Positions 20,332-55,320 of a stretch of DNA of 64,000 nucleotides are shown here, one piece after another (within the stretch, counting starts at the first letter, position 1; every line of letters starts with the position of its first letter). This DNA is from Stappia sp. ES.058. Lineage in GTDB: Bacteria > Pseudomonadota > Alphaproteobacteria > Rhizobiales > Stappiaceae. Where the stretch lies: NCBI RefSeq assembly GCF_900105595.1, contig NZ_LT629784.1, forward strand, positions 4,445,001 to 4,509,000. The letters run 5' to 3'. Under the pieces are notes generated by a model that was not told the origin of the DNA, searched no databases, and saw only the letters and a list, made by a program, of their open reading frames with translations. Made by a program: the position numbers and the translations under genes.

Positions 20332-20345
20332 TCCGCGGTACGGAT

Positions 20346-20588: not shown

Positions 20589-20618
20589 ACATCCCATGGC
20601 CCCGGGGACCCTCAAGCC

Positions 20619-25747: not shown

Positions 25748-26518
25748 TTACCCGTCCTGTTCCAGCCGAACCAGTTCGCCCCAGTTTCGCATCGACAGCA
25801 TGTGGCTATAAATCGCCGTCAGCGCGTCGGCGTGCCGCAGTTCGAGGAATGCCTCGTCCGAAAGTGCCGCCAAGCGTTTCTCGTCGACAACGAGGAAATC
25901 ATTTACCGTCAGGACTTCGCCTGATGCCAGGGTAAAACGCCCCGAGTTCGGCACCAGAAGGTCATGCTCGGAGAGTTTGGCGAGAATCGTCTCGCTCGCC
26001 AGAGCCTCCCGCTGGAAGGCGCCGCAGAACTCCAGCGCCTTGCGCGTGATCTCAGCCGGCTCGCCGTCTTCAAACAGCAGGCTGCCCTCGTCTGTTGCGA
26101 TCTTGTCGCTGTCTGCATCCATGCACAGGACGAATTCGCTCTGGTCCTCGCTTCGTGCCAGCACGAATGGATACCGGCGTACGTAGGAGGGAATGTAGGT
26201 GTTCGCCTGCCAGTTGCCGGCTTCGTCTACAAACAGGTTTTTCCCTGTGCGCAGGCCAAGCACGGCCACCGCTGCGGGCGGCGTGGTCCCGGCCGCGAAC
26301 ACGATGGGGTAGTGCCGGGCAGCGGCGGCGAACTCGACGGCATTCAACGGCGCCGCATGGCTGCCCCTGGAAAATGTGTAGTTGGGGGTCAGGTCCACGC
26401 GAACGTTCGCGTGACGTTCGGCCCGAATGGCTTCCGGGCGGCTGTAAAACAGCGGCATGCCCGAGGGGGCTGCCTCCGCCGCGCGCGGTGCGGTGCCGTC
26501 GGCCTCTGACTTTGTCAT
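25748..26518 (-). CDS. SapC family protein
   Basis: A 256-residue SapC-family protein. Visible features: YSRPEAIRAERHANVRVDLT near the N-terminus, a hydrophobic strand FAAAARHYPIVFAAG, IPSYVRRYPFVLARS in the middle, and a DFLVVDEKRLAALSDEAF segment. Family members are named after a Campylobacter surface-layer transporter gene, but their function in alphaproteobacteria is not established and this one has no signal peptide. ATG 26518 is used; a frame to 26734 adds 72 residues of low-complexity sequence with no match. A hairpin terminator shared with the IalB gene lies beyond its stop. Confidence 0.85.
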   Translation of the reverse strand: MTKSEADGTAPRAAEAAPSGMPLFYSRPEAIRAERHANVRVDLTPNYTFSRGSHAAPLNAVEFAAAARHYPIVFAAGTTPPAAVAVLGLRTGKNLFVDEAGNWQANTYIPSYVRRYPFVLARSEDQSEFVLCMDADSDKIATDEGSLLFEDGEPAEITRKALEFCGAFQREALASETILAKLSEHDLLVPNSGRFTLASGEVLTVNDFLVVDEKRLAALSDEAFLELRHADALTAIYSHMLSMRNWGELVRLEQDG

Positions 26519-26725
26519 ACTGGGTCGTCCTTCGCCGGTTGGGACGTTGCGGGAGAGCCGGGCGAATCTCGGACAGACCCGGTCGACTGGCACTTTTTGT
26601 ACAATTCCTGCCCCATGTTGCCTAGGGTCGGAAGCTGGGTATATGCATACTGTCGGTTGCGATGATGCCGGTGTCGGCGCTCTCGCTTCGCGAAATCCGC
26701 ACCTGCTGCGAAACCGGGGCCGTCC

Positions 26726-27187
26726 ATGACACAATCAGATGCCGGAGAAAGCTGGGTCAGGGGCACGCATCTGGGCGTCGCGTTGACCGGCGAGGACATT
26801 GTTCTCGACGGCGGGGTCTTTCGAGATTGCCGGTTCAATGCGTGCCGCCTGCACTACGACGGAGGGATGTTGCCTGTTCTGACAGGGTGTCATTTCGACG
26901 ATTGCTCATGGCTGTTTGGCGGGCCCGCCGCCAATACGCTGTCCATTCTGTCGGCGCTGAACCAGGGCGGATTTGATGCCGTCGTCGAGCGCACGGTGGC
27001 CGCGATCCGAAGCGGCGCGATCGGCGTGCCTGCGCCGGCGGAACAGCCGGCCGAGCGGGGCCGCCGCAGGGTGATCGATCTCGGGTTCGGCCAGTTTCCG
27101 GTGCCAAGGGTGCTGCGTCGCTCAAGGCCTCGCCCCATCGACGGCCCGGACAGCGGCGGTCAGGACACTGAAGGACGGGAAGAATGA
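26726..27187 (+). CDS. Hypothetical protein, tail-collar cluster
   Basis: A 153-residue protein I do not recognise. The N-terminal 60 residues have a pentapeptide-like rhythm with spaced Cys (GGVFRDCRFNACRLHYDGG, CHFDDCSWLF), which may be a beta-helix start or metal site; the C-terminal 60 are basic and disordered. Start ATG 26726. It ends in an ATGA overlap with the following 100-residue gene, so the two are coupled. Its neighbours point to the tail-collar protein block, where such small genes recur. Confidence 0.6.
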   Translation: MTQSDAGESWVRGTHLGVALTGEDIVLDGGVFRDCRFNACRLHYDGGMLPVLTGCHFDDCSWLFGGPAANTLSILSALNQGGFDAVVERTVAAIRSGAIGVPAPAEQPAERGRRRVIDLGFGQFPVPRVLRRSRPRPIDGPDSGGQDTEGREE

Positions 27188-27486
27188 CAGGACCAATCGA
27201 TCTCTCGACAGCGACCATGGCGGATTTCGAGGCTTGCAGGGACAAGCCGATCCGGCTTACCTGCGACGGTGAAAGCATGTCGCTTACGATCGCCGAAATC
27301 GCGCCGGTCAGCGGACCGGAGCGGGAAGGCGGGGCGTTTTCCGTCGTGTTCAAGGGGCCGGCGGAGCCGGTTGTCGAACAGGCGATCCACCAGATCGAAA
27401 TCGAGGGCGCCGGCGAGACGGCGCTTTTCATTGTGCCGCTCGGGCCCGACGGCGAGGGCATGCTTTATGAAGCCGTGTTCAACTGA
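27184..27486 (+). CDS. Small protein, DUF6916-like
   Basis: A 100-residue acidic protein starting MTGPIDLSTATMADFEACR and ending LFIVPLGPDGEGMLYEAVFN. It resembles the DUF6916 type of small proteins that accompany tail-collar (MdpB) genes: a central predicted beta-barrel with EGGAFSVVFKGPAEP. It is coupled by ATGA to the 153-residue gene before it and points towards the minus-strand GNAT/propeller/tail-collar genes. Function unknown. Confidence 0.6.
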   Translation: MTGPIDLSTATMADFEACRDKPIRLTCDGESMSLTIAEIAPVSGPEREGGAFSVVFKGPAEPVVEQAIHQIEIEGAGETALFIVPLGPDGEGMLYEAVFN

Positions 27487-27573: not shown

Positions 27574-28125
27574 TCATGCAGAAGCGCGGGCGTTCCATCG
27601 CATGAGGTGGTAGACGCCTTTGTCCTCGCGCTTGGTGAAGCCGAGACGCGTGTAGAGGCGCATCGCTGGATTGTTGTGCTCCACGTGGATGCCGACGCCG
27701 AGATTGGCGTGCTTGGCCAGCGCCATCACGTCGCGCAGCATCGCCGTGCCATATCCCTCTCCACGGGATTCCGGCATCAGGGCGATGTCGATGATGCGGA
27801 TCTCCGACGGCCATCGTTCCAGATACAGCCGGCCGATGGCGATGCCGTCGCGTTCCACGACCAGCCAGTCGGCATCCGGGTAATGCTGCATGTAGTGTGT
27901 ATGCTGCGCTTGGAACTGCATTTCGAGAAATGCGGCCTTTTCGGCTTCGCTCCACGGCAGTGGCGCGACTTCCTCGCGCCGGGTCGAGGCATAGAGCGCT
28001 GCGAGGAACGGCAGGTCGCTCTCGCCGATGCGGCGAAAGGAAAGCCCGCGCCGGGTGGCGCGGGCGAGTCTTGGCAGCTCGTTGCCCGCCGCCTTCGGGA
28101 TGGTGGCGGTCGGCGTGTCCGTCAT
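27574..28125 (-). CDS. GNAT family N-acetyltransferase
   Basis: A 183-residue GNAT. The acetyl-CoA loop is in ALMPESRGEGYGTAMLRDVM (R/Q-x-x-G-x-G/A pattern), with the later AMRLYTRLGF. ATG 28125 is preferred. It begins one base before the stop of the propeller gene upstream, so both are in the same transcript as the tail-collar genes. It might acetylate one of the neighbouring surface proteins or a small molecule; there is no direct evidence. Confidence 0.88.
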   Translation of the reverse strand: MTDTPTATIPKAAGNELPRLARATRRGLSFRRIGESDLPFLAALYASTRREEVAPLPWSEAEKAAFLEMQFQAQHTHYMQHYPDADWLVVERDGIAIGRLYLERWPSEIRIIDIALMPESRGEGYGTAMLRDVMALAKHANLGVGIHVEHNNPAMRLYTRLGFTKREDKGVYHLMRWNARASA

Positions 28126-28126
28126 G

Positions 28127-29404
28127 TCAGTCCGTACTGCTCGGTGGGGTAAGGTCGCGCACCACCTGGAAGGGCTTCTGGAAACCGCTTCCCGCAAGTT
28201 GGGTCCATCCCGCTTCCCAGGAGGTTGCCTCCAGTGTTGCCTCGGGAAGACAGGCGATGGTGCCGTCTCCGCTGGATCCCTGGAAATAATACAGGCGACC
28301 GTCGGCGCTGTAGTTCATGTCGGCCTCGCCGAAGCCCGGGGAGGTGCCGATTTTCTGCCAGCCGCGCCATTGCTGGAAGATGGCGTCGATCTGCTGGTTG
28401 GCATGGATCGCCTTGTTCTCGTCCTGTGCGACGAGCACGACGTTCCCGCTCGCATCGAAGGCTGCCGTCAGATTGACCAGTGCCTCGCCGACCATGCCGG
28501 GACGGATCCAGGGCGACCAGGTCATCGCGCCCGGCGGGTACTGGCGGATCTGCACGACGTCGGCGTCCTTGCCGATCATGAAGATGTTGAGCGCGCCCTC
28601 CCGGTCGAGCACCATGGTGGGCGTTCCGGAGCCGGCGCCGCTGGCGTCATTGTCGATCCGCGTCCATCCGGTCCATTTTTCGGGTGTGAGGGTCAGTGTC
28701 TCGGTCTGCTGATTGACGAAGACCTTGCGGCTGTTCGGATCGCTTTCGACCCCGACGAGGAGGATCCGCCCGTCGGAATTCGAGGCAGCGCCGATGGAGG
28801 CCATTTTCTCTGGCCCGAGCTGTTGCCAGTCGCCCCAGACATTGGCGGGCGGTTGCGCCACGGGCACCGTGATGGTGATCGGCTCGCTCGCCCCCGGAGG
28901 CGTGATCTCGATCGTTTCCTCGACGACCCTGTCGGGGTTCTGCTGGATCCACCAGATCTCGCCGGTATTTGCCAGTGCGAACACCGAGATCCGGCCGCTC
29001 GCGTCTCCGATGAGCGCGATCTCGTGGATCTCGGACACGCCGGTGGGCATGCCGAGCGAGACCGGCGCATTCCAGCTCTGGTCCGGCCCGGCGCCGTCGC
29101 CGGCCTCGTCGATGAAATCGATGCCGGAATGGTCGGATTTTTCCGCGGCGAGCGCCACGCGGCCGTCCGCCGTGAGGCCGCTGCCCAGCGTTGCATAGGT
29201 ATCGTCGTTGATCGCGGTCCATCCGTTCGACCACGGACCGTTGGGCGAGACCTGTGCGCGCCACGCCAATTTGTTGCCGATGCTGGAATCGATGCCGATC
29301 ACCATGAGCCGCGACAGCTCGGCGAAGGGCGTCTCGCTGCGCTCGTCGCCGGGCAGGGTGGCGCCATCTTCCAGTTCGATTTCGGTTCTCAGTGCTTCGG
29401 TCAT
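28127..29404 (-). CDS. Predicted beta-propeller lectin-like protein
   Basis: A 425-residue protein with repeated blade-like units of about 45-50 residues: WSNGWTAINDD, WNAPVSLGMPTG, WGDWQQLGPEK, WTGWTRIDND, WSPWIRPGM, WRGWQKIG, WEAGWTQLAG. Each Trp-x-x-Trp-x-x-(I/L) unit is followed by a strand such as GRISVFALANTGEIWWIQQ. This is the pattern of PLL/tachylectin-like seven-bladed carbohydrate-binding propellers. No signal peptide is evident. ATG 29404. It stands between the GNAT and three tail-collar genes, all minus strand. Carbohydrate binding is inferred from the pattern. Confidence 0.7.
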   Translation of the reverse strand: MTEALRTEIELEDGATLPGDERSETPFAELSRLMVIGIDSSIGNKLAWRAQVSPNGPWSNGWTAINDDTYATLGSGLTADGRVALAAEKSDHSGIDFIDEAGDGAGPDQSWNAPVSLGMPTGVSEIHEIALIGDASGRISVFALANTGEIWWIQQNPDRVVEETIEITPPGASEPITITVPVAQPPANVWGDWQQLGPEKMASIGAASNSDGRILLVGVESDPNSRKVFVNQQTETLTLTPEKWTGWTRIDNDASGAGSGTPTMVLDREGALNIFMIGKDADVVQIRQYPPGAMTWSPWIRPGMVGEALVNLTAAFDASGNVVLVAQDENKAIHANQQIDAIFQQWRGWQKIGTSPGFGEADMNYSADGRLYYFQGSSGDGTIACLPEATLEATSWEAGWTQLAGSGFQKPFQVVRDLTPPSSTD

Positions 29405-29447
29405 GGCCGCGCTCCTGTGAGAAAACATCTGAAATGACGTCGCAACC

Positions 29448-29972
29448 TCAGCTGCGCGACGGATAAAGCCCCTGCAAGGCGATGATGAAATTCATCGTCA
29501 GATAGGGCTGCATGTTGTTGTGCGCTTGCGACCCGCCGGCCGACGGCAACATTTGCTCTGCCATTGTGCTGTTGGGCTGGTTCAGGGAATAGGCATTGCC
29601 GCTGTCGGAAAACGCATATGACGTGGTGCTGGTCGGCGTGGTGATATCAGCGGGGTCGGTATTCACGGCGCGAAGCGTGTGATTGTGGTTGGGCATCTGC
29701 GCCTCGGTGAGCGTCACCGTCTCGACGCCACCACGTTGGCCGAGCCGCCGCGAGGTCAGACCGGGACCGCGGCCGGGATGCATCGGCGCCCGCCCTTCCA
29801 GGTTCGGCAGCGCCGTGGTCGAGCGCCCGTCGCCGCCATAGGTGGTGCCGATCAGGGAAAACAGCGCCGTGTTCTGCGAGACGGGGAGCAACTGGCCATT
29901 GCAGAAGGCCCAGCTGCGGGGCGCGAAATTGCCGGCGAAAATGCGAACCTCGGCAATGAACGGTTCGGACAT
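29448..29972 (-). CDS. Tail-collar (MdpB/microcystin-dependent type) protein 1
   Basis: A 174-residue tail-collar protein. Family signature: FAPRSWAFCNGQLLPVSQNT, LFSLIGTTYGGDGRSTTALP, NLEGRAPMHPGRGPG, MPNHNHTL, and the end MNFIIALQGLYPSRS. Members resemble phage tail fibre tip domains, but in bacterial genomes they occur as free-standing genes in tandem. I start at MSEPFIAE (29972). It follows a second copy by 13 bases. Function unknown; the fold is thought to be a trimeric collagen-like or receptor-binding tip. Confidence 0.88.
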   Translation of the reverse strand: MSEPFIAEVRIFAGNFAPRSWAFCNGQLLPVSQNTALFSLIGTTYGGDGRSTTALPNLEGRAPMHPGRGPGLTSRRLGQRGGVETVTLTEAQMPNHNHTLRAVNTDPADITTPTSTTSYAFSDSGNAYSLNQPNSTMAEQMLPSAGGSQAHNNMQPYLTMNFIIALQGLYPSRS

Positions 29973-29985
29973 GGGATTGCCTCCT

Positions 29986-30504
29986 TCAGTGCCGGCTCGG
30001 ATAAATACCGAAGAGCGCGATGATGAAGTGAACACACAGGAACGGCATCAGGTTCGTGTGCGACCGGCTGCCGCCGGTGTGGGTGATCGCGTTGGAGCTC
30101 ATGTTGCTGTTCGCGGTCCCGTCGAAATAGATATCGACCGCTGTCGACGTTGCCGTAACGTTGCCGGCGGGACTGCTCTCCGTTCCGATCGCTGTATCTG
30201 CGCGAGCGGGATGTCCGTGACTCGGTATTTGGTTGACGGTAAGAGTGACCTTTTCCGAGCCAGCCTTGGCGCCGAGCCGGCGTTCCGACAGGCCGGGTCC
30301 GTGCCCGGCGTGGATCGGCAGGCGACCGCGCATGTCCGGCAGGCCGAAGGTCGTGCGGCCGTCGCCGCCATAGATCGTGCCGAGCAGGGAAAACAGCGCG
30401 TCGTTCTGGCTGACCGCGAGCAATTGCCCGTCGCAAAACGCCCAGCCGCGCGGGGCGAAATTGCCCGCGAACATCCGGATTTCACCGACAAAAGGTTCGG
30501 ACAT
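29986..30504 (-). CDS. Tail-collar (MdpB type) protein 2
   Basis: A 172-residue paralogue of the flanking proteins, starting MSEPFVGEIRMF and with GWAFCDGQLLAVSQND, LFSLLGTIYGGDGRTTFGLP, DMRGRLPIHAGHGPG and HFIIALFGIYPSRH. The variable part is the middle 60 residues, which carries an Asn/Thr-rich stretch and GGSRSHTNLMPFLCVHF. The three copies differ mainly in that middle, as in receptor-binding tips. Same strand and operon as its neighbours. Confidence 0.9.
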   Translation of the reverse strand: MSEPFVGEIRMFAGNFAPRGWAFCDGQLLAVSQNDALFSLLGTIYGGDGRTTFGLPDMRGRLPIHAGHGPGLSERRLGAKAGSEKVTLTVNQIPSHGHPARADTAIGTESSPAGNVTATSTAVDIYFDGTANSNMSSNAITHTGGSRSHTNLMPFLCVHFIIALFGIYPSRH

Positions 30505-30558: not shown

Positions 30559-31074
30559 TCAGTTGCGCGAGGGGAACAGGCCCTGGATCGCGATGCAGAA
30601 GTTTACCGCGATGTAGGGCTGCATGTTCTCATGCGCTTGACTGCCTCCCACGTTGGTGACCGTGCCCGCGCGCAGCGTCACGCTCGACGCGCTGAAATCC
30701 GCGTAGCCACCCGGGAAACCGGCGAAGATATGTCCCGTCGGTGAAGCTTGCATACCCGAGGCCGAGTCGGCCTGCACGAAGTGATCGTGCTGCGGCAGTT
30801 CGTTGACGGCGAGCGTGTGCGTTTCCTCGCCGCTCTTCTGGCCTTCGGTATGAAACTGTCCGCCATTCGAGCGCCCGACATGGATCGGGGTGCGGCCGCG
30901 CAGGTCGGGAAGGGCGAAACTCGTGCGCCCGTCGCCCCCATAGGTCGTGCCGAGCAGCGAATAGAGCGACTGGTTCTGGTTGATCGGCAGGATTTGCCCG
31001 TCGCAGAATGCCCAGCCGCGCGGGGCGAAATTGAACCCCATCATCCGGATCTCGGCGAGGAATGGTTCAGACAT
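30559..31074 (-). CDS. Tail-collar (MdpB type) protein 3
   Basis: A 171-residue member of the tandem set, starting MSEPFLAEIRMMGFNFAPRG. It shows FCDGQILPINQNQSLYSLLG, TTYGGDGRTSFALPDLRGRT, PIHVGRSNGGQFHTEGQKSG, QHDHFVQAD and the end VNFCIAIQGLFPSRN. It is the first gene of the minus-strand cluster; the next upstream gene is the giant adhesin, 326 bases away. It is likely co-transcribed with copies 2 and 1, the propeller and the GNAT. Confidence 0.9.
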   Translation of the reverse strand: MSEPFLAEIRMMGFNFAPRGWAFCDGQILPINQNQSLYSLLGTTYGGDGRTSFALPDLRGRTPIHVGRSNGGQFHTEGQKSGEETHTLAVNELPQHDHFVQADSASGMQASPTGHIFAGFPGGYADFSASSVTLRAGTVTNVGGSQAHENMQPYIAVNFCIAIQGLFPSRN

Positions 31075-31400: not shown

Positions 31401-34400
31401 TCAGTTCGGGCAGCTTGAGACAAAGGTGACGGATCCGCTCGTCGAAATCACCGCGTCGATCGTGTTGCCGACCGTATTGTTTGCGGTCAGGTGGTTTTCG
31501 ATCGCCACTTCCGTGGCCGCGCCGCCACCACCGTTGTTGATCTGCAGGTTGCCGTTGTTCCGCGCTCTCACGCGGATCCCGTCCACGTAGTTGCCGTTGG
31601 CGGTCACCTCGTTGCCGGAGATCGTGGCGCAGACCGTCGGCGTAGCTCCGGATTGGGCGCCTGAATCGACCTGGATGCCGCGCTCGAACGCGCCGCTGGA
31701 GAGATTGTCGGTGATTATGTTGTTCTGAATCAAAACGCTCAGCTGATGACTGCTCCCGACGCCTACGCCTGCTGTAACGCCGATGCCGTTGCGATCGTGG
31801 TCGTAAATTTTGTTGTTGGTAATCCTGTAGATGGACGACCCGCCCCCGGCGGCATCCACGTCGATCGCCGTGAAGGCCGTACCGCTACCGACGCTTCCGA
31901 TCGATCCGATGGTGTTGTCGGAGATCGTCATGTCGACCGTTCCGGAAAACACGCCGCCGCCATTAACGCTGCCGACGTCGATGGCGTTGTTGAGCGAGCC
32001 GAGCGTCGCCAGGTTGTTGTTCGAGATGGTGATATTGAAGTCGCCGGAACTCTGTGTGTCGGCACGGACGCCGATGCCGCCGTTGCCGGCGATGCCGGAA
32101 TGCTTGGTGAAGGTGTTGGTGTCGATCGTCAGTCCGAAATCGGCGGTGCCGGCCGAAACGAGCTGGATGTGCGCCCCGACGGCCGCGGTGAACGTATTGT
32201 TGTTGATCGATCCGTTCACGCTGCCGCCCTCCGCGACAATCGTGATGCCGTTGTCGCCGATCGCGGCATTCGCGCCATCGCCGGTCGTCACGGTTGCGCC
32301 TGTCATCGTCAGGGTCAGCGTGCCGCTGGTCCCGTCGTTGTCGATATTGATGGAATCTTCGATACCGCCAAGATAAGTGCCACCGGCGATCCCGACGGTT
32401 CCCGTCAGGTTGTTGACATAGAACACGCCTTCGTCCGGACCCTTGTCGTCGCCATGCGCGCCGGTGAAATCGACATTGTTCATCGTCATGCCGTCCACGC
32501 CGAAGCCGCGCAGGCCGAAGTTCGTCGTGTTTTGCACCTGCAGGTTGGCGATGCGCACGTCGGAGACATTTTCCAGATAGATCGCCGCGCCCTGGCCACT
32601 GGCCGTGGGGGTCTCGTCCGCCATGTTCGCGCCGGTGATGTTCTGGATCAGGCCGCCGGAGCCGTCGGTCGAGCCCGTGCCGGTGATCGAGAAGAAGCCG
32701 GTCGAGCCGGTGTTGCGCAGGTTGATCGCGTTCGAAGCGCCATTCGTCGAGACCGACTGGAAGGTGACGCCGTCTGCACCCAGCGTTGTTCCCTCGATTT
32801 GCACGGCCCGGCCGGTCGTGGTGGTGACCGAGTTGGGGTTGCCCGTACCCTGAACGGTCACCGTCCCGCTGCTGCTGGCAAGGAAGCCCGCGCCGCTCGT
32901 CGTGTCGATGTCGAGCCCGCCACCGATGAAATTGATCGCCGTCCCGTTATTGTTTGTCAGACTGACGGCGGTGTTCGTACCCGTGCTGAGCGTCTTCGTG
33001 CCGCCCGAGAAATTGATCGTGCCGTTATTGTTCGCCGTGACCTGGATACCGCCTGCCGCGCCGGTCGCGCTCAGATTGCCCGAGAAGGTTACGGTTCCGG
33101 CGCTGCGCCCGGAAATCTCGATGAGATCATTCGCAGTGGTCTTGGTGACGGTCGCGGCAATCGTCACATTGGCAGAACCACCGTTGATATCCACGGCGAT
33201 GCCGGCCGGATCATTGGTCGCGCCGATCGATCCGCCGCTGATCGTCACGGCACTGTGGGCGTTGGCGATTTCCACGCCATCACCGCCCGTCCCGTCGATG
33301 TCGACGGTGTCGAACGTCACGGCGCCATTTGCGCCGCTGAGAAGGATGCCGGCACCCGCCGCGCCGTCGATCGTCGCGGACGTGAAGTTGAACGTCGACG
33401 TGGAAAAGCCGGAAATCACGATGCCGTTGCCGGCGGTCGACGTGTTGGCCACGCTCACCGCGCCCCCGTTGAAGGCCCCGCCATCGACATCGAACAGCCT
33501 GACGGCGTCGCCCGAGACCGTGCTCGAAGCAGCGAGCGTGTCGAAGGACACGCCGGTGCCGCCGATGGTGACGTCGTTCATCCGCAGGATCTGGCCCGTC
33601 GCCGTGTTGATCTCCTGCGTGCCGCTGCTTGCGACATTCAACGTCAGCGCGCCGCCGCCCGTGGCATTGGCATCGAAGCCGGTGCCCGCACTCGTGTCGA
33701 TGTCCAGCCCGCCGGTGAAGGCGAGGCTGGTGGTGTCGCTCGCCGTCGCCACGACCTCGACGCCACCGCCCGCGGATCCGGCATTGTTGATGGTCGTCGT
33801 GCCGAAGCTGAAGTCGCCGCTGGAATTGACGATCTGCACACCGGAGTCACTGGAGCCGGTGATGTTGAGCGTGCCGATGGTCAGGGCGCTGTTGCCCGCG
33901 CCGCCGACCGCGTCGCCCGCGTCGATGAACACGCCCGATCCGAACCCGTTGGCGCCATTCGCACTCGTCGAACTCACCGAGGAGAAGCTGAGGTTCATCG
34001 TCAGCGGATCGAGGAACAGCGCGCTGCCGTTGGTCGTGTCGACCGTGCCCGAGCCGCCGCCCGTCATGGTGAAGTCGGTGTTCAGTCCGTTCGTCTTGGT
34101 GTCGACCAGGAGGCCGGTGCCATTGCTGTTGTAGATGTTGAGCGTGGCGAAATCGATCGCGCCCGTGGTGTCGGCGAAGCCGACGCCATCGCCCTCGACG
34201 CGCGCGCCGGTCCCCTGGCCCACGTTCAGCGTGCCGGCGGAGACTGTAGCGCCGGCGCCATCGCTGTCGAAGTCCACCTTCTCGAAGAAGATGCCGCCAC
34301 CCGTGCCGTTGCCGATCACGGTGTTGCCGGCGAAGGCGCGCACCTGCACGGAGTTCTGCTCCGTCGAGATGTTCTTGCCTATGATCGAGACGGTCGAAGC

Positions 34401-37400
34401 GCCCGTCGCGGCGCTCTCGAAGGTGGTGTTCGAGATCGAAAGTTGAAGTTTGTTGGCCGATGTGGGCCCCAAATCGTCGACGTCCAGTGCCTGGCCGGTG
34501 GATCGGATGACATTCGTGCCGGTCATGTTGACCGTCAGATCACCGGGGCCAATGCCAGCAATGAAAATACCGGCTCCAGCGACATCGCTCGTGTCGCCGC
34601 TGCCGCCGGACCCCATGGTGATGTCCGTCAGGGTGACCGTGTTGGAAACCCCGTTCGAGTTCACGATATGGATGCCTGCACCGGCCACGTCATTGCCGGT
34701 GCCGGTGTTCGACGAACCGATGATCAGCCCGGACAGCGAGGCATCCGCGTCCTGGAGGAAGACGGCTTCCGCATCGGTGTCATCGACCCGATTGATGCCG
34801 GTCGAGGTGACCGAGAGAGATCCGCCGCCGCTGCCGAGGAAGCTGATTGAGCCGTCCAGGTCGAGATCGGAGAACTCGACGTTGCTCGCCCCGCCCGTCG
34901 TCGCGATGTCGATCGATCGCGCGGAAGAACTGACGTCGATCTGGCTGGAGCGGATGCGGGCCGTCGCACTGGCCGCATAGGACGCGGAGATGCCGTCACC
35001 CGAACCGGTGTTGCGAATGGTGGTGTTCTGGATCGTCGAGGACCCGGAGAGTGTCACGGTGCCGTTCGCGGAATCGGATGTCAGGATGGCGCGGACGTCG
35101 TCGAGAGTGCCGCCGGTCGCCGTCACTTGCGTACTGGAGGCGATGCCGGTGAGCTTCAGACTGGCCGGTGCGCCCGAGCCGCTGAGGCCGAGCGTCGCAA
35201 GGTCCACCGTCTCGCCATTGACCATGGACACCAGCACCTGGTCGTCCGCGAGCGTGAATGTTCCGTCGTCCTGCGCCGCCACGTTGATCACGTCGCGCGT
35301 GTCGTCGTCGTTGTTGTCGACGAGGATGATCGCGTCGGCGCCGGAGGCTTCCGCGCCCGTGATCGTGCCCGGTGTCACGAAGGTGCCGTTGCCCGCGCCC
35401 GTGCTGCCGTTGCTGCCCACGACATAGTAGGACGGTCCGGCGAGGTTCGAGGTGTTGGTGGTGCCGAGCACCGTGCCGAAGGCCACGTCCTCGAGATCGT
35501 ATTCGCCGGTCGAGCCCATGCCCGTCGTCACCACGGCAAAGCCGGTCGTGTCGATGGTGCTTTCCGTGCCCGGATTGGTGCCGTCGCCGTCGCCGTACTG
35601 GAAGCGCACGCCGTTTGCGATATTCGCGTTGGTCAGGTCGATGCCGGTTTGCACGCCCTGGATCGTGCCCGATCCCGTCGTCACGACGTCCTTGGAGTTG
35701 TCGTAACTCGTGAGATCGATACCCGTGGACCCGGTCTGGCTGGTGCCGGTGATATCGAGCGTTGCGAAGGTTGCCTGACCGTCGAAGGTGCCGCCAGAAA
35801 GATTGAGTCCGGTTCCAGCGCCAAGCCCCGTGATATCGACATTCCCGAAAGTCATGTCGCCGTTGGTGCCGGTGGCGCGGATGCCGTTGCCGCCGGTGCC
35901 CATGGCGATGGTCATGTCGCCGGTTGTCAGGGTTCCGGCGTTGCCGATCAGCAGCAGGCCCTCGTCGCTCGTGACCGAGATGTTGACCGTGCCGAAGCTC
36001 ATGTCCGACGACACGTTGGTCAGCGAGAAGGCCGAGCCGGCAGAGCCTGAGACCGTGGTCGTGCCTGTGACGGTGAAGTCGCCGCCCGTGATGGTGTTGA
36101 GGCCGATACCGACGGGGCCGACATTCGTGCCCGTGATCGAGGTGAAATTCACCCCGCCTGCACCGAAGCCGATACTGCCGAAACTTATGGTCTGGGCATT
36201 GTCGACCGCAAGCGAACCGGTTCCGACCGACAGCGTACCGCCGATCTGCACGAGCATGCCGAAGCCGCCATCCGTCACCACATCGATATCGGCGAAATTG
36301 ATGTCCACGTTCTGGCCGTTGTTGTCGATGGCAACGCCGGAGAAACCGAGGGCGGTTGTCAGGCCGAGATCGACGGTGCCGGTAAACGATATCGAATGGG
36401 CGCCCGTTGCACCGGAGGAGGAGATGCCGCCCGTGCCCGGGCCATCGGCGACCACCGTTCCCGCATGGGTGAAGCTTCCGCCCGTGCGGTTGTTGATGCT
36501 TACCGCGGAACCGCTGGTCGTGGTGATCGAGCTGTCGGCATCGAAGGTGAAGACCGCGTCGCCGCCGTCGATCGCCAGCGTGTTGCCGCCGGCGATGTCG
36601 ACATTCGTCGCGGTCACCGTGCCGGACGCATCGGTGAACGAGATGCCGTTTGCCGCACCGGTGATCGAGATGTCGGACAGCGTGGTGGTGCCGGTCGTAT
36701 TGGTGAGCGTGATCGCCGTTCCGGTCGCGCCGGTCGAGGTGATGTTCGTCAGCGTCGAGCCGGCCGCGTTCAGCAGGATGTCGCCGGCGTTCCCGGAGAA
36801 GTCGACGTCGTTGATCGTGGTGTTGGTCGAGGGCGTGATCTCGATGCCGACGGTTGCGAAATTCGACACGTTCGACCGCTCGATCACGCTGCCTGTCGCA
36901 CCGGCGCCGCCGTCGTTGATGCCGCGTGCGGCGGTGCCATTGCCCTCGAAATCGATACCGGAGATGCGGATGCCGTCGCCGCCGAGCGTGACGACGTCAT
37001 TGCCGGCCGAGGTCGTCAGCGTCGCCGCGCCGCCTCCGGTCGGGTCGGCGATGGTCAGCCCGGCGGCGAACAGCTGGATCGTCGGCGGAACGGTCAGGCT
37101 GACTTGCACCGACTGGCTGCCGCCCGCGCCGTCGCCGAAGGAAAGCAGTTGCTGGCTGGCGGCGAGATTGAGCGTGTCGTCGGCGTTTGTACCGGCAGCG
37201 GTGATCGCCGATCCGTTGTCGATCAGCACGATGATGTCGCCGGCGCCTGCGGCCGCCTCGGCGGCGGCCAGCGTCATCGGATTGGTAGCGCTCGAGCCGG
37301 ACCCGTCGCCGCCGCCGGTCGCGCCGTCGGAATCGACGAAATAGATCGTGCCGATGCCGAAACCCGCGCCCGGGCTTCCCGCGAATTCGACGTCCTGGAA

Positions 37401-40400
37401 ATTGTAGGTGCCGGCCACGGGCGCATTTGTGGCGTCGATGGCGGTTGTCGCGGAGATCGTCGATCCCTGGTCGGTCGCGCCTTCGCCGTCGCCGAAAATG
37501 AATGCGGCGTTGCTCGCGGCATTGACGAAGACGCCGGTCTGGACACCGGCAATGGCGGCGTCCTCGCCGTCAGCCGCTGCATCTCCGAGCCGCACCGTGC
37601 TGCCGCCCGTCGTGCCGCGCAGATCGACGCCGATGGTGTTGGCGGACCCGTTGCCGGTCACGTCGAAGTCGTTGGCTGTGACGGCGGCGTTCAGTGTCGC
37701 GCCGTTCAGCTCGATGCCTGTCGTCTCTTCCGAATTGAGCGCGATGTCGAGATCGTTGAAGGAGATCGTCCCGTCGATCGTGCCGGAAATGTCGACGCCG
37801 GCGCTGTGCGCCTCCCGGGCGGTGCCAACGACAGGGCCGGTGAACGGGTAGAGGGCCGCGCGTGGATTGACGATGGCGACCTGGTTGAAGGCGATCGCGC
37901 CGCTGGTGTCGGCGATGCGGATCGCGTCCTCCACCGTGTCGGTGATCGTGACGGTTCCCGTGGAGGTGAAGGTGCCGCTGTTGCCGGCCAGGTTGATGCC
38001 GACGGCCGAGCCACCGGTCGTATAGGCTCTGCCTGCGAGCGCGGAGCCGCTCTCGGTGCCGATGGTGATGTCGCCAAACGTGAAATTGCCCGAGGACGTG
38101 ACAACCGATAGCCCGAAGATTCCCGAATCCCGGAAGTAGCCGGAGCCTCCAAAGTCCTGTGCCTGCTCGCCGTAGGTGATGTTGGTGGCGCCGGTGACCG
38201 TGAACGATCCGGCATAGTTGGATGCCCGGAAACCGCCGAGGCCAGCGTTCTCGTTATCCAGGGTCATGCTGGACAGTGAGATCGAGCCGTCGAGCTCGCC
38301 GGTCGTGCTTTCGAGCTGCACCCTGCCGGCATCGATGCTGCCGCCGGCGATATTGAGGGTCAGACCACCGTTGTCGCCGCTTGCCGACAGTCCGGTGTTA
38401 ACGGTGTTGACCGTGTAGTCGCTGAAACTGATGCTGCCGCTGTTCTCGGCGCTGAAGGAGAGACCGTTGCGGTTTGCCAGGCCCGGCGTTCCCGACGCGA
38501 AGGTGCCGCCATTGACGGTCTGGATGCCGGCGGTTCCGAGATCCGCATCGAAGGTGACGCCTTCGAAGAAGACACCGTTGTTGAAGAAAGTCGGATCGAA
38601 GGACGTGGCACTGCCCAGCAGCGTGTTGTTCGCGAAATTGGTGACGGTCGCCAGCCGGTTGGCGGCGAGCACCTGGACCGCCGCATCCTCGGTCGCGAAT
38701 GTGGAGTTGGACACGGAGACGACGGCGCTGTCATCTCCATCGGTCTCCACCAAGATGCCCTGTTCGACGATCCCGACGTTTCCGGAGGATGCGTCGTGGG
38801 TGATCGTCAGCCCGTCCACGGCAAGCTCGAACGCGCGTGTCGCCGCGCCGTCGTTCTGGATGAGCTCGACACTATTGAAGGCGCTGCCGGAGGCAACCGT
38901 CGCCAGTGTGCCGCCGTTGACGGCGAGCGATCCGTCGAGATCGCGAAGGGCCACCGAGCCCATGTTCGAATTGTTGGTGTCGATCGAGTCGAACGTCGCC
39001 TGCACGTTGAGGCCGGTGAGCGACAGCGCCATGGCGCCGGTCGTCGTGATCGTCTCGCTGGCGAAGTTGCTGACCCTGAGCGTGCCGCCGCCCGTTCCGT
39101 CGAGGCCCGTCTGGCCCGACGTCGTGATCCGCAGGCCGCCGTCGAAGGCAAGGGTGGACGTGGTCCCGTTGTTGTCGAAGGAAACACCCGCGCCGCCGCC
39201 AAGCGCCGTGGTCTGGCCGAGGGACACCTGACCGCCGAAGGTCACATCGCTCGCGGCGGTCGCCCCCGTGATGGAAATGCCGCTCGCGCTGCCTCCGTTC
39301 GACGCAATGCTGCCGAAGTGGGTGAAGCTGCCGCCGATGCGGTTCGTGATCGAAACCGCCGTGCCGGAGGTGTTGGTGATCGAGCTCGAGGCATTGAAGG
39401 AAACGGCCGCGTCTCCGCCGGTCACCGACAGCGCGTTGGCGCCTGTGATGTCGACGTTGTTGCCGGTCACGGTGCCGCTTGCACCGTTCAGCGACAGGCC
39501 GGTGCCCGTCGTATTGGTGATGTCGACGTTGGTCAGCGTCACCGCGCCGGTCGTGTTCGTCAGTTCGATGCCGTTGACCGGCGTGTCGGTGCCGGTCCCG
39601 ATGGTCACGCCCTCGATGGTCAGGCCGGCGACGCCGGAGCCGGACAGGGCCGTGCCCAACGTGCTGCCAAGCGTGATGTTGCGGATGGTGTTGCCGTTGG
39701 CGACGGCGATCGTGCTGACAGCGCCGGAGGAATTTGTCAGCGTTGCGGCGCCGTTGCCCGTCGGATCGGTGATCGCGGTTGTGCCGGCGGGAAGGTTGGT
39801 TCCGGTGATGTTGGCGGCGATGATCAGGCCGGCGGTGGTAAAGGTTCGCCCGCCGCCGAAGGTGTCTATGGTCTGATTGTCGGCGAGCGCGAAGGTCAGG
39901 CCGGAGGTGTCGATCGCCGATCCGTCGTTGATCAGGATGAAGTTCACGGTTCCGAGGCCCGCGGCATCGGCGATCGCCGTTGCGATCGAGGCGCGGTTCG
40001 TCGTGGACGAGCCGTCGCCGGAGCCGGTCGCGGTGGCGGCAACGAAATAGTTCGGCGCGCCGGAGGTCGTGAAATTGAAGGCGCCCGTGAAACCGGTGGT
40101 GCCGAAAGCGTAGGAGCCGTTTGCTGCGTTCACGCCGACGCCGTCGAGCGCGTAGGTCAGCCCGCCGATGTCGCCGCCGCCCCAGGTGAACACCGCATCG
40201 GGCGCGGCGAGCGCGTTTCCGTTCGTGCCGAGCACGAGGCCGACATCCACATTGGTGATCGTGCCGCCGTTGGTGACGGCGATGGTGCGCCCGTTCTGCG
40301 TGCCGGAGAGATCGACGCCCGCGCTGCCGGCAACGCCGGTGCCGGTGATGTCGAGGCTCTGCATGGTGAGGGTGGCGTCGGCGCCGGCCATGTTCAGGCC

Positions 40401-42254
40401 CGTGCCGCCGCCAAGGCCCGTGACGTCCACATCACCGAAGGTCAAGGTGGCGTTGTTGGTGTTGCTGAGGTCGATGCCGTCGCTGGTCGCACCCGCGCCG
40501 AGGCCGTTCAGCGTTGTCGTGCCCGAAAAGCCGAAGGTGCCGCCGCCGGTCACGGCGATGGCATCGTCGCCGGTGTTGGTCGCGGTGAAGCCGGTGACGT
40601 TGATGATGCCGGTGTTGTTGGTGAACGTCAAAGCATCGCCGGAGACATTGCTGACGTTGATGTTCGACAGCGTGGTCGTGCCGGTGTTGTTGGCGATCGA
40701 CAGGCCGTTGGTGCCGCCGTTGATCGTGATGTTGCTGATCGTTGCCGACTGGTTGTTCAGGAACAGCGATGTGCCGGTGATGCCGGAGAAGGAAATGTCG
40801 CTGACGCTGGCGTTCACCGCGCCCGTGACGCGGATGCCGTCGGTCGCGTTCTGGATGGAGAGATCCGTCAGCGTGAAGTTCGAGACGGCGTTGCCGCCGA
40901 TCACCGTTGTGCCGCCCTGGATGGTCAGGTCGCGAATGGTCACGCCGTCGGCAAGCGTCACTGTCGTGACGCCGGGGTCGCCGTCGATGGTGCCGTTGGT
41001 GCCCGACAGCAGGAAATTCGTCGTGGAACCGTCGGCGAGCTGGACCAGGATGCTCTCGCCACCGCCGATCAGGGTCTGACCGGACTGCAGCGTGATGCCG
41101 GCGGTGGTGATCGGTCCGCCGCCGCCAAGCGCGACGACAATGCCGCCAACGCCAGCATTGGCGACAGCGGTGGCAAGCGCGGTCGGATCCGCGAAATCGC
41201 CAGTGCCGCCACCCGCCTGATCCGCGTAGTAAACGCCACCGTAGGCAACGCCCGTCGCCGGATTGATCACGCGAACGCCGTTGACGGCGGTCGTGCTGCT
41301 TTGCGTGCCGACGCGGATGCCCTTGTCGCGGCGCACGCCCTCATTCATGCGCTGCTGGATCGCGGACAGTCGGCTTTCGCCATTCGCGTCCGTTGATTGC
41401 GCCCCGGCAAACAGCGGAATGCGCAGGCGTGCGGAGGCGATGGCGTCGAACTCGTCGTCCTTGTCGTAGACGAGTTCCGCGCCCAGCGTGAAACGCGATC
41501 CGGCAAGGCTGAGGACATCGTTGATCTGATATTCGAGACCGAGCCGCCCGCCGGCCTCGGTGTCATAACCGCTGCGGTCGTAGATGTAACCGCCGGCGTA
41601 GGCGCGCAATCGCTGATTGTCGGCGAAGGGCGAATCGAACATCGCGCCGATCTCGCCGGTCAGGCCGTAGAGCAGCCCTTCCTTGCGATCCGTGCGCGAG
41701 CGGTTCTCGACCAGCTGGTTGGCGACGATGCTGACGCCGTCGCCGGTAACGATCGGAGACAGGGTCGTGCCGCCTCCGATTGGAATATGGGCGTTGACGC
41801 GCAGGTCGAAGATCGAGGTGAAGGCTTCCAGACCCAGCGTCGCGCCGGCGAATGTGTTGCCGTTTTCGGTGCGTACCGCATCGACGAAGGCGTTCGCGCC
41901 GAGGATCAGGTCCGGTCCGACGATCTCGCGCACGCCCAGGCCGATCGACGTTGAGCCGCGGCTGTTCACCCCATAGTCGAGGCGCATGTCGAGGAAGACG
42001 ATGCTGTCCGCATCCTGGCCGATCGGCATGAACCCTTCGAGAAAAGCGTTCGTCTCCGGGCCCGCCTGCGCGCCAAGCTCGCCCCATGCGCCCCAGAGGC
42101 GCTGGGAATCCTGAGCGACAGCCTGTCCGCCGGCACCCGCCATGATGGCGGCCGCGCAGGAGGACGACAGCAATTCCCGGCCGGAAACACGAAAGCGGCG
42201 GGTGGCGGGCGGATTGTACGAAATGACACTCTCCCAAGTGTTCAAACGATGCAA
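31401..42254 (-). CDS. Giant inverse-autotransporter-like adhesin (type Ve), 3617 aa
   Basis: A 10.9-kb gene. Residues 1-48 form an extended signal peptide (cleavage near AVAQ). Residues 50-285 form an outer-membrane barrel of the intimin/invasin inverse type: FLEGFMPIGQDADSIVFLDM, then VGPDLILGANAFVDA, TLGLEAFTSIFDLRVNAHIP, GGYIYDRSGYD and SARLRIPLFAG. From about 340 the passenger is a Gly/Thr/Asn-rich, beta-helix-like fibre with modules opening at about residues 343 (VYYADQAGGGTGD), 736 (NYFVAATATGSGDG), 1638 (IYFVDSDGATGGGDG) and 2276 (SYYVVGSNGSTGAGNG). Mature cysteines appear only near the C-terminus (TVCATISG and the final SSCPN), compatible with a disulfide-capped tip. Start 42254; the barrel is N-terminal and the passenger follows, the reverse of classical autotransporters. 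It is likely surface-anchored and binds cells, surfaces or kin. The barrel call is good; ligand unknown. Confidence 0.85.
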   Translation of the reverse strand: MHRLNTWESVISYNPPATRRFRVSGRELLSSSCAAAIMAGAGGQAVAQDSQRLWGAWGELGAQAGPETNAFLEGFMPIGQDADSIVFLDMRLDYGVNSRGSTSIGLGVREIVGPDLILGANAFVDAVRTENGNTFAGATLGLEAFTSIFDLRVNAHIPIGGGTTLSPIVTGDGVSIVANQLVENRSRTDRKEGLLYGLTGEIGAMFDSPFADNQRLRAYAGGYIYDRSGYDTEAGGRLGLEYQINDVLSLAGSRFTLGAELVYDKDDEFDAIASARLRIPLFAGAQSTDANGESRLSAIQQRMNEGVRRDKGIRVGTQSSTTAVNGVRVINPATGVAYGGVYYADQAGGGTGDFADPTALATAVANAGVGGIVVALGGGGPITTAGITLQSGQTLIGGGESILVQLADGSTTNFLLSGTNGTIDGDPGVTTVTLADGVTIRDLTIQGGTTVIGGNAVSNFTLTDLSIQNATDGIRVTGAVNASVSDISFSGITGTSLFLNNQSATISNITINGGTNGLSIANNTGTTTLSNINVSNVSGDALTFTNNTGIINVTGFTATNTGDDAIAVTGGGTFGFSGTTTLNGLGAGATSDGIDLSNTNNATLTFGDVDVTGLGGGTGLNMAGADATLTMQSLDITGTGVAGSAGVDLSGTQNGRTIAVTNGGTITNVDVGLVLGTNGNALAAPDAVFTWGGGDIGGLTYALDGVGVNAANGSYAFGTTGFTGAFNFTTSGAPNYFVAATATGSGDGSSTTNRASIATAIADAAGLGTVNFILINDGSAIDTSGLTFALADNQTIDTFGGGRTFTTAGLIIAANITGTNLPAGTTAITDPTGNGAATLTNSSGAVSTIAVANGNTIRNITLGSTLGTALSGSGVAGLTIEGVTIGTGTDTPVNGIELTNTTGAVTLTNVDITNTTGTGLSLNGASGTVTGNNVDITGANALSVTGGDAAVSFNASSSITNTSGTAVSITNRIGGSFTHFGSIASNGGSASGISITGATAASDVTFGGQVSLGQTTALGGGAGVSFDNNGTTSTLAFDGGLRITTSGQTGLDGTGGGTLRVSNFASETITTTGAMALSLTGLNVQATFDSIDTNNSNMGSVALRDLDGSLAVNGGTLATVASGSAFNSVELIQNDGAATRAFELAVDGLTITHDASSGNVGIVEQGILVETDGDDSAVVSVSNSTFATEDAAVQVLAANRLATVTNFANNTLLGSATSFDPTFFNNGVFFEGVTFDADLGTAGIQTVNGGTFASGTPGLANRNGLSFSAENSGSISFSDYTVNTVNTGLSASGDNGGLTLNIAGGSIDAGRVQLESTTGELDGSISLSSMTLDNENAGLGGFRASNYAGSFTVTGATNITYGEQAQDFGGSGYFRDSGIFGLSVVTSSGNFTFGDITIGTESGSALAGRAYTTGGSAVGINLAGNSGTFTSTGTVTITDTVEDAIRIADTSGAIAFNQVAIVNPRAALYPFTGPVVGTAREAHSAGVDISGTIDGTISFNDLDIALNSEETTGIELNGATLNAAVTANDFDVTGNGSANTIGVDLRGTTGGSTVRLGDAAADGEDAAIAGVQTGVFVNAASNAAFIFGDGEGATDQGSTISATTAIDATNAPVAGTYNFQDVEFAGSPGAGFGIGTIYFVDSDGATGGGDGSGSSATNPMTLAAAEAAAGAGDIIVLIDNGSAITAAGTNADDTLNLAASQQLLSFGDGAGGSQSVQVSLTVPPTIQLFAAGLTIADPTGGGAATLTTSAGNDVVTLGGDGIRISGIDFEGNGTAARGINDGGAGATGSVIERSNVSNFATVGIEITPSTNTTINDVDFSGNAGDILLNAAGSTLTNITSTGATGTAITLTNTTGTTTLSDISITGAANGISFTDASGTVTATNVDIAGGNTLAIDGGDAVFTFDADSSITTTSGSAVSINNRTGGSFTHAGTVVADGPGTGGISSSGATGAHSISFTGTVDLGLTTALGFSGVAIDNNGQNVDINFADIDVVTDGGFGMLVQIGGTLSVGTGSLAVDNAQTISFGSIGFGAGGVNFTSITGTNVGPVGIGLNTITGGDFTVTGTTTVSGSAGSAFSLTNVSSDMSFGTVNISVTSDEGLLLIGNAGTLTTGDMTIAMGTGGNGIRATGTNGDMTFGNVDITGLGAGTGLNLSGGTFDGQATFATLDITGTSQTGSTGIDLTSYDNSKDVVTTGSGTIQGVQTGIDLTNANIANGVRFQYGDGDGTNPGTESTIDTTGFAVVTTGMGSTGEYDLEDVAFGTVLGTTNTSNLAGPSYYVVGSNGSTGAGNGTFVTPGTITGAEASGADAIILVDNNDDDTRDVINVAAQDDGTFTLADDQVLVSMVNGETVDLATLGLSGSGAPASLKLTGIASSTQVTATGGTLDDVRAILTSDSANGTVTLSGSSTIQNTTIRNTGSGDGISASYAASATARIRSSQIDVSSSARSIDIATTGGASNVEFSDLDLDGSISFLGSGGGSLSVTSTGINRVDDTDAEAVFLQDADASLSGLIIGSSNTGTGNDVAGAGIHIVNSNGVSNTVTLTDITMGSGGSGDTSDVAGAGIFIAGIGPGDLTVNMTGTNVIRSTGQALDVDDLGPTSANKLQLSISNTTFESAATGASTVSIIGKNISTEQNSVQVRAFAGNTVIGNGTGGGIFFEKVDFDSDGAGATVSAGTLNVGQGTGARVEGDGVGFADTTGAIDFATLNIYNSNGTGLLVDTKTNGLNTDFTMTGGGSGTVDTTNGSALFLDPLTMNLSFSSVSSTSANGANGFGSGVFIDAGDAVGGAGNSALTIGTLNITGSSDSGVQIVNSSGDFSFGTTTINNAGSAGGGVEVVATASDTTSLAFTGGLDIDTSAGTGFDANATGGGALTLNVASSGTQEINTATGQILRMNDVTIGGTGVSFDTLAASSTVSGDAVRLFDVDGGAFNGGAVSVANTSTAGNGIVISGFSTSTFNFTSATIDGAAGAGILLSGANGAVTFDTVDIDGTGGDGVEIANAHSAVTISGGSIGATNDPAGIAVDINGGSANVTIAATVTKTTANDLIEISGRSAGTVTFSGNLSATGAAGGIQVTANNNGTINFSGGTKTLSTGTNTAVSLTNNNGTAINFIGGGLDIDTTSGAGFLASSSGTVTVQGTGNPNSVTTTTGRAVQIEGTTLGADGVTFQSVSTNGASNAINLRNTGSTGFFSITGTGSTDGSGGLIQNITGANMADETPTASGQGAAIYLENVSDVRIANLQVQNTTNFGLRGFGVDGMTMNNVDFTGAHGDDKGPDEGVFYVNNLTGTVGIAGGTYLGGIEDSINIDNDGTSGTLTLTMTGATVTTGDGANAAIGDNGITIVAEGGSVNGSINNNTFTAAVGAHIQLVSAGTADFGLTIDTNTFTKHSGIAGNGGIGVRADTQSSGDFNITISNNNLATLGSLNNAIDVGSVNGGGVFSGTVDMTISDNTIGSIGSVGSGTAFTAIDVDAAGGGSSIYRITNNKIYDHDRNGIGVTAGVGVGSSHQLSVLIQNNIITDNLSSGAFERGIQVDSGAQSGATPTVCATISGNEVTANGNYVDGIRVRARNNGNLQINNGGGGAATEVAIENHLTANNTVGNTIDAVISTSGSVTFVSSCPN
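35420..41240 (-). repeat. Adhesin passenger modules (four openings)
   Basis: Within the adhesin, a repeated opening Y-(Y/F)-V/A-x-G-x-G-x-G-(D/S/T) is followed by a segment with a VNFILINDGSAI / DIIVLIDNGSAI / DAIILVDNND-like strand. These occur at about residues 343, 736, 1638 and 2276. A second motif, (S/T)GTAVSITNR.GGSFTHFGSI, recurs near residues 972 and 1925, with a weaker third copy near 3050. They indicate internal duplication of large beta-helix domains. Positions are my counts and approximate. Confidence 0.6.
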
Positions 42255-42573
42255 TTATTTGGCGAGTTCACTGACGAATGCAGCGTTCAAGATGTTGCCC
42301 AATTTCAACAACCGTGGCGCGAAATTCAACTTCTCATTCTGCCCAAGTGTCTCTTCGGTAACGTTTTCGTAAGAGTGTTGCCCGGGCGCTACAGTGCTTT
42401 CCGGTAGTTGCGGCTCTTCGCTATTATGCGGGGTCGAGGGGATTTTTTGTTGCCGTCGGCACCGCGATCCGGTTTGCGCGCCCCGACCCGGACGCCCTAT
42501 AAATCATCGGTGCCACCGGAAATGCGGTTCGCGACCCGGTACACCGGCTCTTGCATATTTATCGGAGGTCTCC
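42255..42573. other. Divergent control region, adhesin and allA
   Basis: 319 bases between the divergently transcribed adhesin and ureidoglycolate lyase genes. The adhesin-proximal half is AT-rich (CAATTATTTGG, TCAAGATGTTGCCCAATTTC) and would hold its promoter. A GGAGG ribosome site for allA lies at 42564-42568. I see no clear operator or small gene. Confidence 0.5.
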
Positions 42574-55307: not shown

Positions 55308-55320
55308 TGGTGCTCGCCCC

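Follow-up and report, generated by a model that had tools for sequence, protein, structure and literature searches.

A likely giant inverse autotransporter of Stappia with a predicted beta-helix passenger and an exchangeable tip

Inverse autotransporters of the intimin and invasin type (type Ve; PF11924, TC 1.B.54) combine an N-terminal beta-barrel with a long C-terminal passenger, typically of immunoglobulin (Ig)-like or lectin domains. As far as the accessible text of the source goes, the intimin passenger forms a hairpin and is secreted from N to C, with the sequential folding of its extracellular domains as the driving force, and type Va autotransporters have a C-terminal barrel and translocate their passengers from C to N (PMC6555100). 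The beta-helix of TpsA proteins is described, in the excerpt available, as capped at its N-terminal end (PMC5422565). In the accessible part of one study, the inverse autotransporter family has been termed almost exclusively gammaproteobacterial (PMC6714894), and a passage of another had previously noted an alphaproteobacterial sponge symbiont that expresses an inverse autotransporter (PMC10947273). Here, a giant gene from Stappia sp. ES.058 is described, which lies on the minus strand of a window of 64,000 nucleotides (the whole stretch analysed; assembly GCF_900105595.1, contig NZ_LT629784.1, positions 4,445,001 to 4,509,000). Stappia is a marine alphaproteobacterium, and database homologues with barrels 90-93% identical to that of the giant protein carry the same genus name. 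It is likely that the gene encodes a type Ve surface fibre with outward-folding beta-helix modules, swapped tips and an AUU start. Its parts are as follows.

31401 to 42254, minus strand: giant inverse autotransporter gene, 3617 amino acids from a TTG, probably 3607 from an ATT at 42224
42114 to 42224, minus strand: plausible signal peptide, residues 11-47, AVA/QD cleavage judged by eye from the sequence only
41415 to 42086, minus strand: inverse autotransporter beta-barrel, about residues 57-280 (PF11924, profile against the PDB, model strands, Foldseek)
41343 to 41363, minus strand: short post-barrel helix, residues 298-304, in the conserved RM-x-E-x-V-R-R-D linker (alignment and model helix 259-265)
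40050 to 41231, minus strand: predicted beta-helix module 1, residues 342-735
37344 to 40049, minus strand: putative module 2, residues 736-1637, its opening homologous to those of modules 1 and 3
35430 to 37343, minus strand: putative module 3, residues 1638-2275 (self-comparison; best Beta_helix stretch 1758-1898, below cut-off)
32844 to 35429, minus strand: putative module 4 and distal shaft, residues 2276-3137 (self-comparison and opening match)
31404 to 32843, minus strand: exchangeable C-terminal tip, residues 3138-3617, including Cys3542 and Cys3615

The open reading frame claimed in the preliminary description is present, on the minus strand from 42254 to 31401, with 3617 codons and zero internal stops; the frame was borne out, while the TTG from which it had been counted is probably not the start. 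An N-terminal barrel of the inverse autotransporter type had also been claimed, and this identity is supported by a profile match, by the sequences of solved structures and by a predicted structure. In a scan of the first 318 residues alone, IAT_beta (PF11924) matched residues 68-160 with 35.1 bits (expectation value (E) 1.4e-8; curated cut-off 22.3). In the PDB, the two leading matches of a profile of 19 related barrels were invasin 4e1t (E 1.5e-6) and intimin 4e1s (E 5.7e-4), ahead of a third at E 0.38. An AlphaFold2 model of residues 40-735, made with a nine-sequence alignment, has a mean predicted local distance difference test score (pLDDT) of 86.1 and a predicted template modelling score (pTM) of 0.70. 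In Foldseek, entries of invasin and intimin took ranks 1-3 for the predicted barrel, at E 1.1e-8 to 3.1e-8, the top two being invasin (E 1.1e-8) and intimin (E 1.8e-8) with target-normalised template modelling scores of 0.69 and 0.76. The model also contains a helix C-terminal to the barrel.

Like intimin and invasin, the Stappia protein has a barrel at its N-terminus, which agrees with theirs in predicted fold and in sequence core, a long C-terminal passenger and a linker of the V-x-R-x-x-x-I type. It differs from them in the wording of this linker, which is RNNNIVLE in intimin and invasin and RMT-x-x-V-x-RD-x-DI in many relatives of the Stappia protein, in its predicted beta-helix passenger with a mosaic tip instead of Ig or lectin domains, and in its alphaproteobacterial host. 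In addition, unlike in the intimin/invasin family, the Pfam scan gave no match to LysM. The likeness to type Va autotransporters and TpsA proteins, such as pertactin and filamentous haemagglutinin, is that these are outer-membrane-secreted beta-helix fibres. However, the type Va barrel is C-terminal and works from C to N, whereas the Stappia barrel is fused N-terminally and the passenger follows it; the full-length Pfam scan lists no barrel family at the C-terminus, including the type Va translocator. TpsA proteins depend on a separate pore protein, whereas the Stappia protein has its own fused barrel; the TPS secretion domain was not matched by Pfam, and the N-terminus is occupied by the barrel. 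Residues 11-47 form a plausible Sec signal peptide by eye. Cysteines occur at residues 33, 3542 and 3615 only, and the claim that they are confined to the C-terminus is right for the mature protein, because Cys33 sits in the likely signal peptide.

The passenger is rich in Gly, Thr and Asn, as had been noted (together 40%, with 0.3% Lys), and four repeated module openings were located at residues 342, 736, 1638 and 2276. The hidden Markov model that placed these openings had been seeded with them, so that the independent support comes from comparing the protein with itself in chunks. Initial self-BLAST runs gave no protein repeats; in the chunk-wise comparison, duplications emerged between residues 356-554 and 1658-1883 (E 1e-12), 342-549 and 736-974 (E 8e-6), and 601-810 and 2131-2355 (E 5e-16). 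For module 1, a right-handed parallel beta-helix is supported by the predicted model, for which the best fold matches include the alginate epimerases AlgE6/AlgE4 and phage tailspikes. Duplicated beta-helix modules, as proposed earlier, are supported by profiles, by the self-comparison and by this segment model, and modules 2-4 and the tip may share the fold. The full-length Pfam scan contained no Big or lectin families, although Ig-like and lectin passengers are typical for type Ve rather than defining. An assembly artefact that joined repeats is unlikely, because the host genome is one 4.63 Mb contig, the DNA repeats found inside the gene are at most 70.5% identical (over 258 bases), and uninterrupted long frames, of 3347-5030 amino acids, are present in 11 of the 14 same-genus genomes.

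The tip does not follow the history of the barrel. Compared with L033 and L034, the relatives closest to it, the window protein has a barrel that is 93/91% identical, next to a flanking DctM gene at 94/93%, whereas tip 3138-3617 aligns with 30% identity over 71% of its length in L033 and 40% over 12% in L034. In the more distant L035, DctM is 85% and the barrel 68% identical, and the tip reaches 74%. In the relative P0009, the barrel is 68% identical, residues 1051-1500 and 2851-3137 are 96 and 98% identical, and the tip 37%. A Hoeflea (metagenome-assembled) protein likewise has a tip 71% identical to that of the window protein, while the barrels of the two are 31% identical. Barrels and tips, the latter taken as the last 400 residues, were compared for 300 pairs of 25 proteins, in which 12 of 22 database proteins were included. 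Barrels more than 85% identical were combined with unlike tips in 12 pairs, the extreme being L033/P0003 with barrels 98.9% identical and no tip similarity detected at E 1e-3. Tips more alike than barrels were found in 15 pairs (P0008/P0021, 83 vs 32; P0022/P0023, 94 vs 52). About six of these 15 are telling, since the difference is slight in four pairs with P0021 (33-35 vs 28-30) and 3-7 points in four others, and the barrel alignment of L038/L039 is incomplete. The tip and inner segments are mosaic, which suggests that genomes recombine with one another while the anchor is held constant. Such exchange is preferred over silent cassettes in the same genome, because residues 335-3330 (E <= 1e-5) and the tip, searched in their own genome, matched only their own place.

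The barrel is not restricted to this strain. A barrel search in 61 genomes, including its own, found it in 20, and two other genera of the same family have long frames of 2727 and 3542 amino acids. A 4457-residue relative whose opening is of the same kind is present in a genome of another family of the same order (G453), where collar genes, described below, are absent from the 20 kb read. In the same genome as the giant gene, a 786-residue paralogue is encoded on the minus strand (L002, 8681-11038; IAT_beta 51.5 bits, Beta_helix 39.4 bits), which shares IAT_beta, Beta_helix and the RMT linker with the giant protein and differs by a single short passenger without the giant array. In G001 and G007, the barrel search found the short paralogue alone, and a partial frame of 2816 amino acids in G007 surfaced in the tip search. 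The copy in G006 (L040) is broken, its frame ending after 849 codons, and that in G027 (L047) is in several pieces; at both, collar genes are still present downstream.

In a wider sample of 289 alphaproteobacterial genomes, that of strain ES.058 included, 32 carried PF11924. From these, 20 proteins were hand-picked and 15 were scanned with Pfam (the other five being L090, L091, L092, L102 and L105). Beta_helix exceeded its cut-off in four of the 15, Calx-beta was found in four (three from one genus), Big_5 in one, IQ motifs in one and no passenger family in five. A tree of 38 barrels, rooted at the midpoint only, split into 11 and 27 rows with support of 100/99. The smaller side holds seven barrel-only proteins, one with Ig, one with Calx-beta, one giant from G259 and one without a family. 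The larger side holds 10 giants, seven short paralogues and four others with beta-helix, five with no or another passenger family, and one barrel-only protein; for most giants and short paralogues, the label is taken from homologous members that were scanned. Seven rows have long branches and an unsure placement (L021, L061, L064, L066, L068, L076 and L083); these include the Ig row and one row with a beta-helix. By this sequence-based assignment, the alphaproteobacterial barrels form two separate clades, one of which is marked by the beta-helix passenger, and this passenger is no one-off. Outside the class but within the phylum, none of 20 open reading frames from 14 genomes, presumably of Gammaproteobacteria, matched Beta_helix and nine matched Big_1; these loci ended about 1.5 kb past the barrel, and fragments and matches lacking a locus were excluded. 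Two further observations concern individual alphaproteobacterial genomes: G259 (1.9 Mb; L102 and L105) has IAT_beta frames of 9595, 10334 and 12720 amino acids, and an inverse autotransporter with many IQ-motif matches (L099) occurs in a genome of 1.8 Mb.

The preliminary description had called both the size and the beta-helix unusual. The protein is large but no record, given the G259 frames and a homologue with 47 D0 repeats that appears in the part available of an earlier report (PMC3008723). The beta-helix is unusual compared with the literature searched, but it is a clade-wide alphaproteobacterial trait rather than a peculiarity of one protein. Among the matches listed in openly licensed papers, as far as their text was available, no description of an inverse autotransporter with a beta-helix passenger was found. 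The pair of IAT_beta and Beta_helix is already present in database entries P0016-P0018, so the architecture has been annotated, not described.

The start codon and the region in front of it contain the following elements.

42222 to 42224, minus strand: proposed ATT (AUU) start, residue 11 of the listed frame
42231 to 42235, minus strand: Shine-Dalgarno-like GGGAG, 6 nucleotides 5' of the ATT, in a conserved block
42376 to 42393, minus strand: upstream motif TGT...GCAACA, read by eye without a significance test

The block TTGGGAG[A/G]GTGTCATT, or a near form of it, is common to 12 same-genus copies, including L040, which is interrupted further on. An in-frame ATT lies 14 codons 5' of the sequence GREL in 11 of the 12 and 24 codons in L043. 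In five copies (L039-L043), the frame from the upstream stop to GREL contains no ATG, GTG or TTG, and the annotated starts of database homologues vary widely. Because the GGGAG-ATT block is conserved while upstream candidates vary and are absent from these five, the conserved start is probably an AUU behind a Shine-Dalgarno-like site, which gives 3607 amino acids. The infC gene of the same genome (L107) likely starts at ATT as well: an ATT nine bases past GAGGAG opens the sequence IRRPYRAPPP..., which we take to resemble the N-termini of initiation factor 3 (IF3), and two in-frame TTG codons lie further upstream. In the accessible text of one source, infC and pcnB alone start at AUU in Escherichia coli, and IF3 discriminates against this codon (PMC9410913); according to an extract of another, staphylococci have a conserved AUU start together with a strong Shine-Dalgarno sequence (PMC13009471). 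Further upstream of the giant gene, GCAACA is found at the same place in all 12 same-genus copies and the TGT half-site in 11. In many copies GCAACA is followed by CTTA and a TTAN-N7-TTAN pattern. This pattern resembles the CtrA box consensus and is a candidate site of that kind. No sigma-70-like promoter was found upstream of the gene, and Rfam gave no match across the window at gathering scores.

Several observations weigh against the reading of the protein as an adhesive beta-helix fibre. IAT_beta is unlisted in the Pfam scan of the full-length 3617 residues, and Beta_helix stays below its cut-off of 25.9 (21.3 bits at full length, 23.3 for module 1 alone), so that routine full-length annotation would miss the architecture. 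The model covers residues 40-735, and the putative fold of modules 2-4 and the tip is read from sequence. The hydrophobic autocorrelation of the passenger showed no clear coil period (0.037 at lag 22, compared with a mean of 0.034 in shuffled sequences for the best lag in the range 15-39). A sequence search of the PDB gave no match for the full length (E <= 0.01), module 1 (E <= 1) or the tip (E <= 1), and the Pfam scan recognised no known adhesive domain. The C-terminal cysteine pair, kept in 11 of 13 long copies, is absent in the other two, and an uninterrupted long frame is missing in three of the 14 same-genus genomes (G001, G006 and G007).

Downstream of the giant gene, the following neighbours were identified.

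30559 to 31074, minus strand: collar-domain protein 1, 171 amino acids (PF07484, 102 bits; synteny)
29986 to 30504, minus strand: collar-domain protein 2, 172 amino acids (PF07484), similar to the T4 short tail fibre gp12
29448 to 29972, minus strand: collar-domain protein 3 (PF07484)
28127 to 29428, minus strand: 433-residue protein, whose relative with a solved structure is 8q82 from Photorhabdus
27574 to 28197, minus strand: GNAT acetyltransferase (PF00583), a syntenic neighbour

Collar genes are present 3' of the long inverse autotransporter gene in 13 of 14 related loci (L033-L043, L045 and L047; absent at L044), with two instead of three at L047. In the PDB, collar 2 matched T4 gp12 (1ocy, E 3.3e-6). 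The 433-residue protein has no Pfam family, and its sole PDB match at E <= 1 is 8q82 (E 2.7e-10), which we take to be a PLL-type lectin with a lectin-like propeller; its gene is found in eight of the 13 collar-bearing loci and in none of L038-L042. Between the giant gene and collar 1, no terminator-like site was found on the minus strand, by which an operon is neither proven nor excluded. A specific link of collar clusters to long inverse autotransporters was considered and dropped, as such clusters also occur in six genomes without one (G022, G028, G030, G032, G035 and G046), in which the barrel search found nothing except a short form on another contig in G028. By eye, the cluster in G030, G032 and G035 lies beside another secreted-looking protein (1674 amino acids in G030, cut short in G032 and G035). 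A DUF6916 gene (27187-27483, plus strand) stands beside the collar cluster and adjoins it in several relatives too, and a SapC-family gene (25751-26734, minus strand) is close by. Elsewhere in the window, G+C falls to about 51% at 54001-57000, compared with 60-69% in the rest, and this stretch is possibly acquired DNA. A frame of 381 residues without a Pfam family (19917-21059, minus strand) lies in a region of strong AT skew.

The fold matches of module 1 to AlgE6/AlgE4 and tailspikes would also fit a surface-anchored polysaccharide-modifying enzyme (an epimerase, lyase or tailspike-like hydrolase) instead of an adhesin. This is improbable: the beta-helix is a common scaffold and a shared fold shows no function, the identities to the A-modules of AlgE6/AlgE4 and to the phage Sf6 tailspike are 10-18% in the rows cited, and those proteins are soluble enzymes or virion parts, whereas the Stappia fibre is anchored. 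The AlgE-type epimerase active-site motif, DPH[DEQ], is absent from all 13 long copies; other catalytic sets were not looked for systematically. The database name of P0005, "S-layer family protein", and the nearby SapC-family gene bring to mind an S-layer or a structural coat, but the N-terminal outer-membrane barrel speaks against it, and length variation and tip exchange would be ill-suited to a lattice protein, which makes this reading very improbable indeed. The barrel and module 1 could also be a platform that exports or holds the collar and lectin-like proteins, with the fibre as their scaffold, comparable to ZirT, which serves ZirS/ZirU in the accessible part of PMC6714894. The collar genes at 13 of 14 loci favour such a link, as do collars 2 and 3, which are 90% identical to those of L035 (83/77 and 82/73% in L033/L034) and, together with the tip, are nearer to L035, opposite to the order of barrel and DctM. 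However, no signal peptide is apparent by eye on the collar or 433-residue proteins, collar clusters occur without a long inverse autotransporter, L044 has the latter without collars, and the genes are 326 bases apart; the platform is considered unlikely. An ordinary ATG, GTG or TTG upstream of the ATT, with the conserved block due to chance or another signal, could serve as start in the seven of 12 copies that carry one, but five have none and the candidates differ between copies while the block is conserved, so this is rather doubtful.

In the preferred reading of a type Ve fibre, the protein would be exported via Sec, after which the N-terminal barrel would insert into the outer membrane and the passenger would be threaded through it from N to C. 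This direction and the surface exposure are inferred from the homology with intimin. Outside the cell, the passenger would fold as stacked right-handed beta-helix modules that replace the Ig domains, and the recurring openings may act as fresh folding starts, so that folding would progress away from the cell. The fibre could be very roughly 50-70 nm long, given its length in residues and a usual coil rise, and its far tip, closed by a probable disulphide between Cys3542 and Cys3615, would contact the target. Recombination would swap tips and shaft segments among strains and genera while the anchor and the start stay, which would alter binding specificity, and the AUU start would keep synthesis low and IF3-sensitive. 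An adhesive function is likewise our inference, and the gene is a good candidate for a modular attachment device. A broader proposal is put forward only tentatively: a separate alphaproteobacterial type Ve sub-class may exist in which the barrel co-evolved with N-to-C beta-helix passengers, and the Stappia giant fibre, with exchangeable tips and throttled by AUU, might act with the co-inherited gp12-like collars and lectin-like propeller as one surface-recognition system.

The view of a family almost confined to Gammaproteobacteria, as worded in the available part of PMC6714894, is countered by the presence of PF11924 in alphaproteobacterial genomes. Large beta-helix passengers and strong tip exchange likewise run counter to the published picture of the family. 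If the conserved AUU start is real, this giant adhesin-like gene would be a rare example of synthesis throttled by the start codon. In addition, the protein would offer a natural test of beta-helix secretion in the direction opposite to that of type Va, through an outwardly similar barrel.
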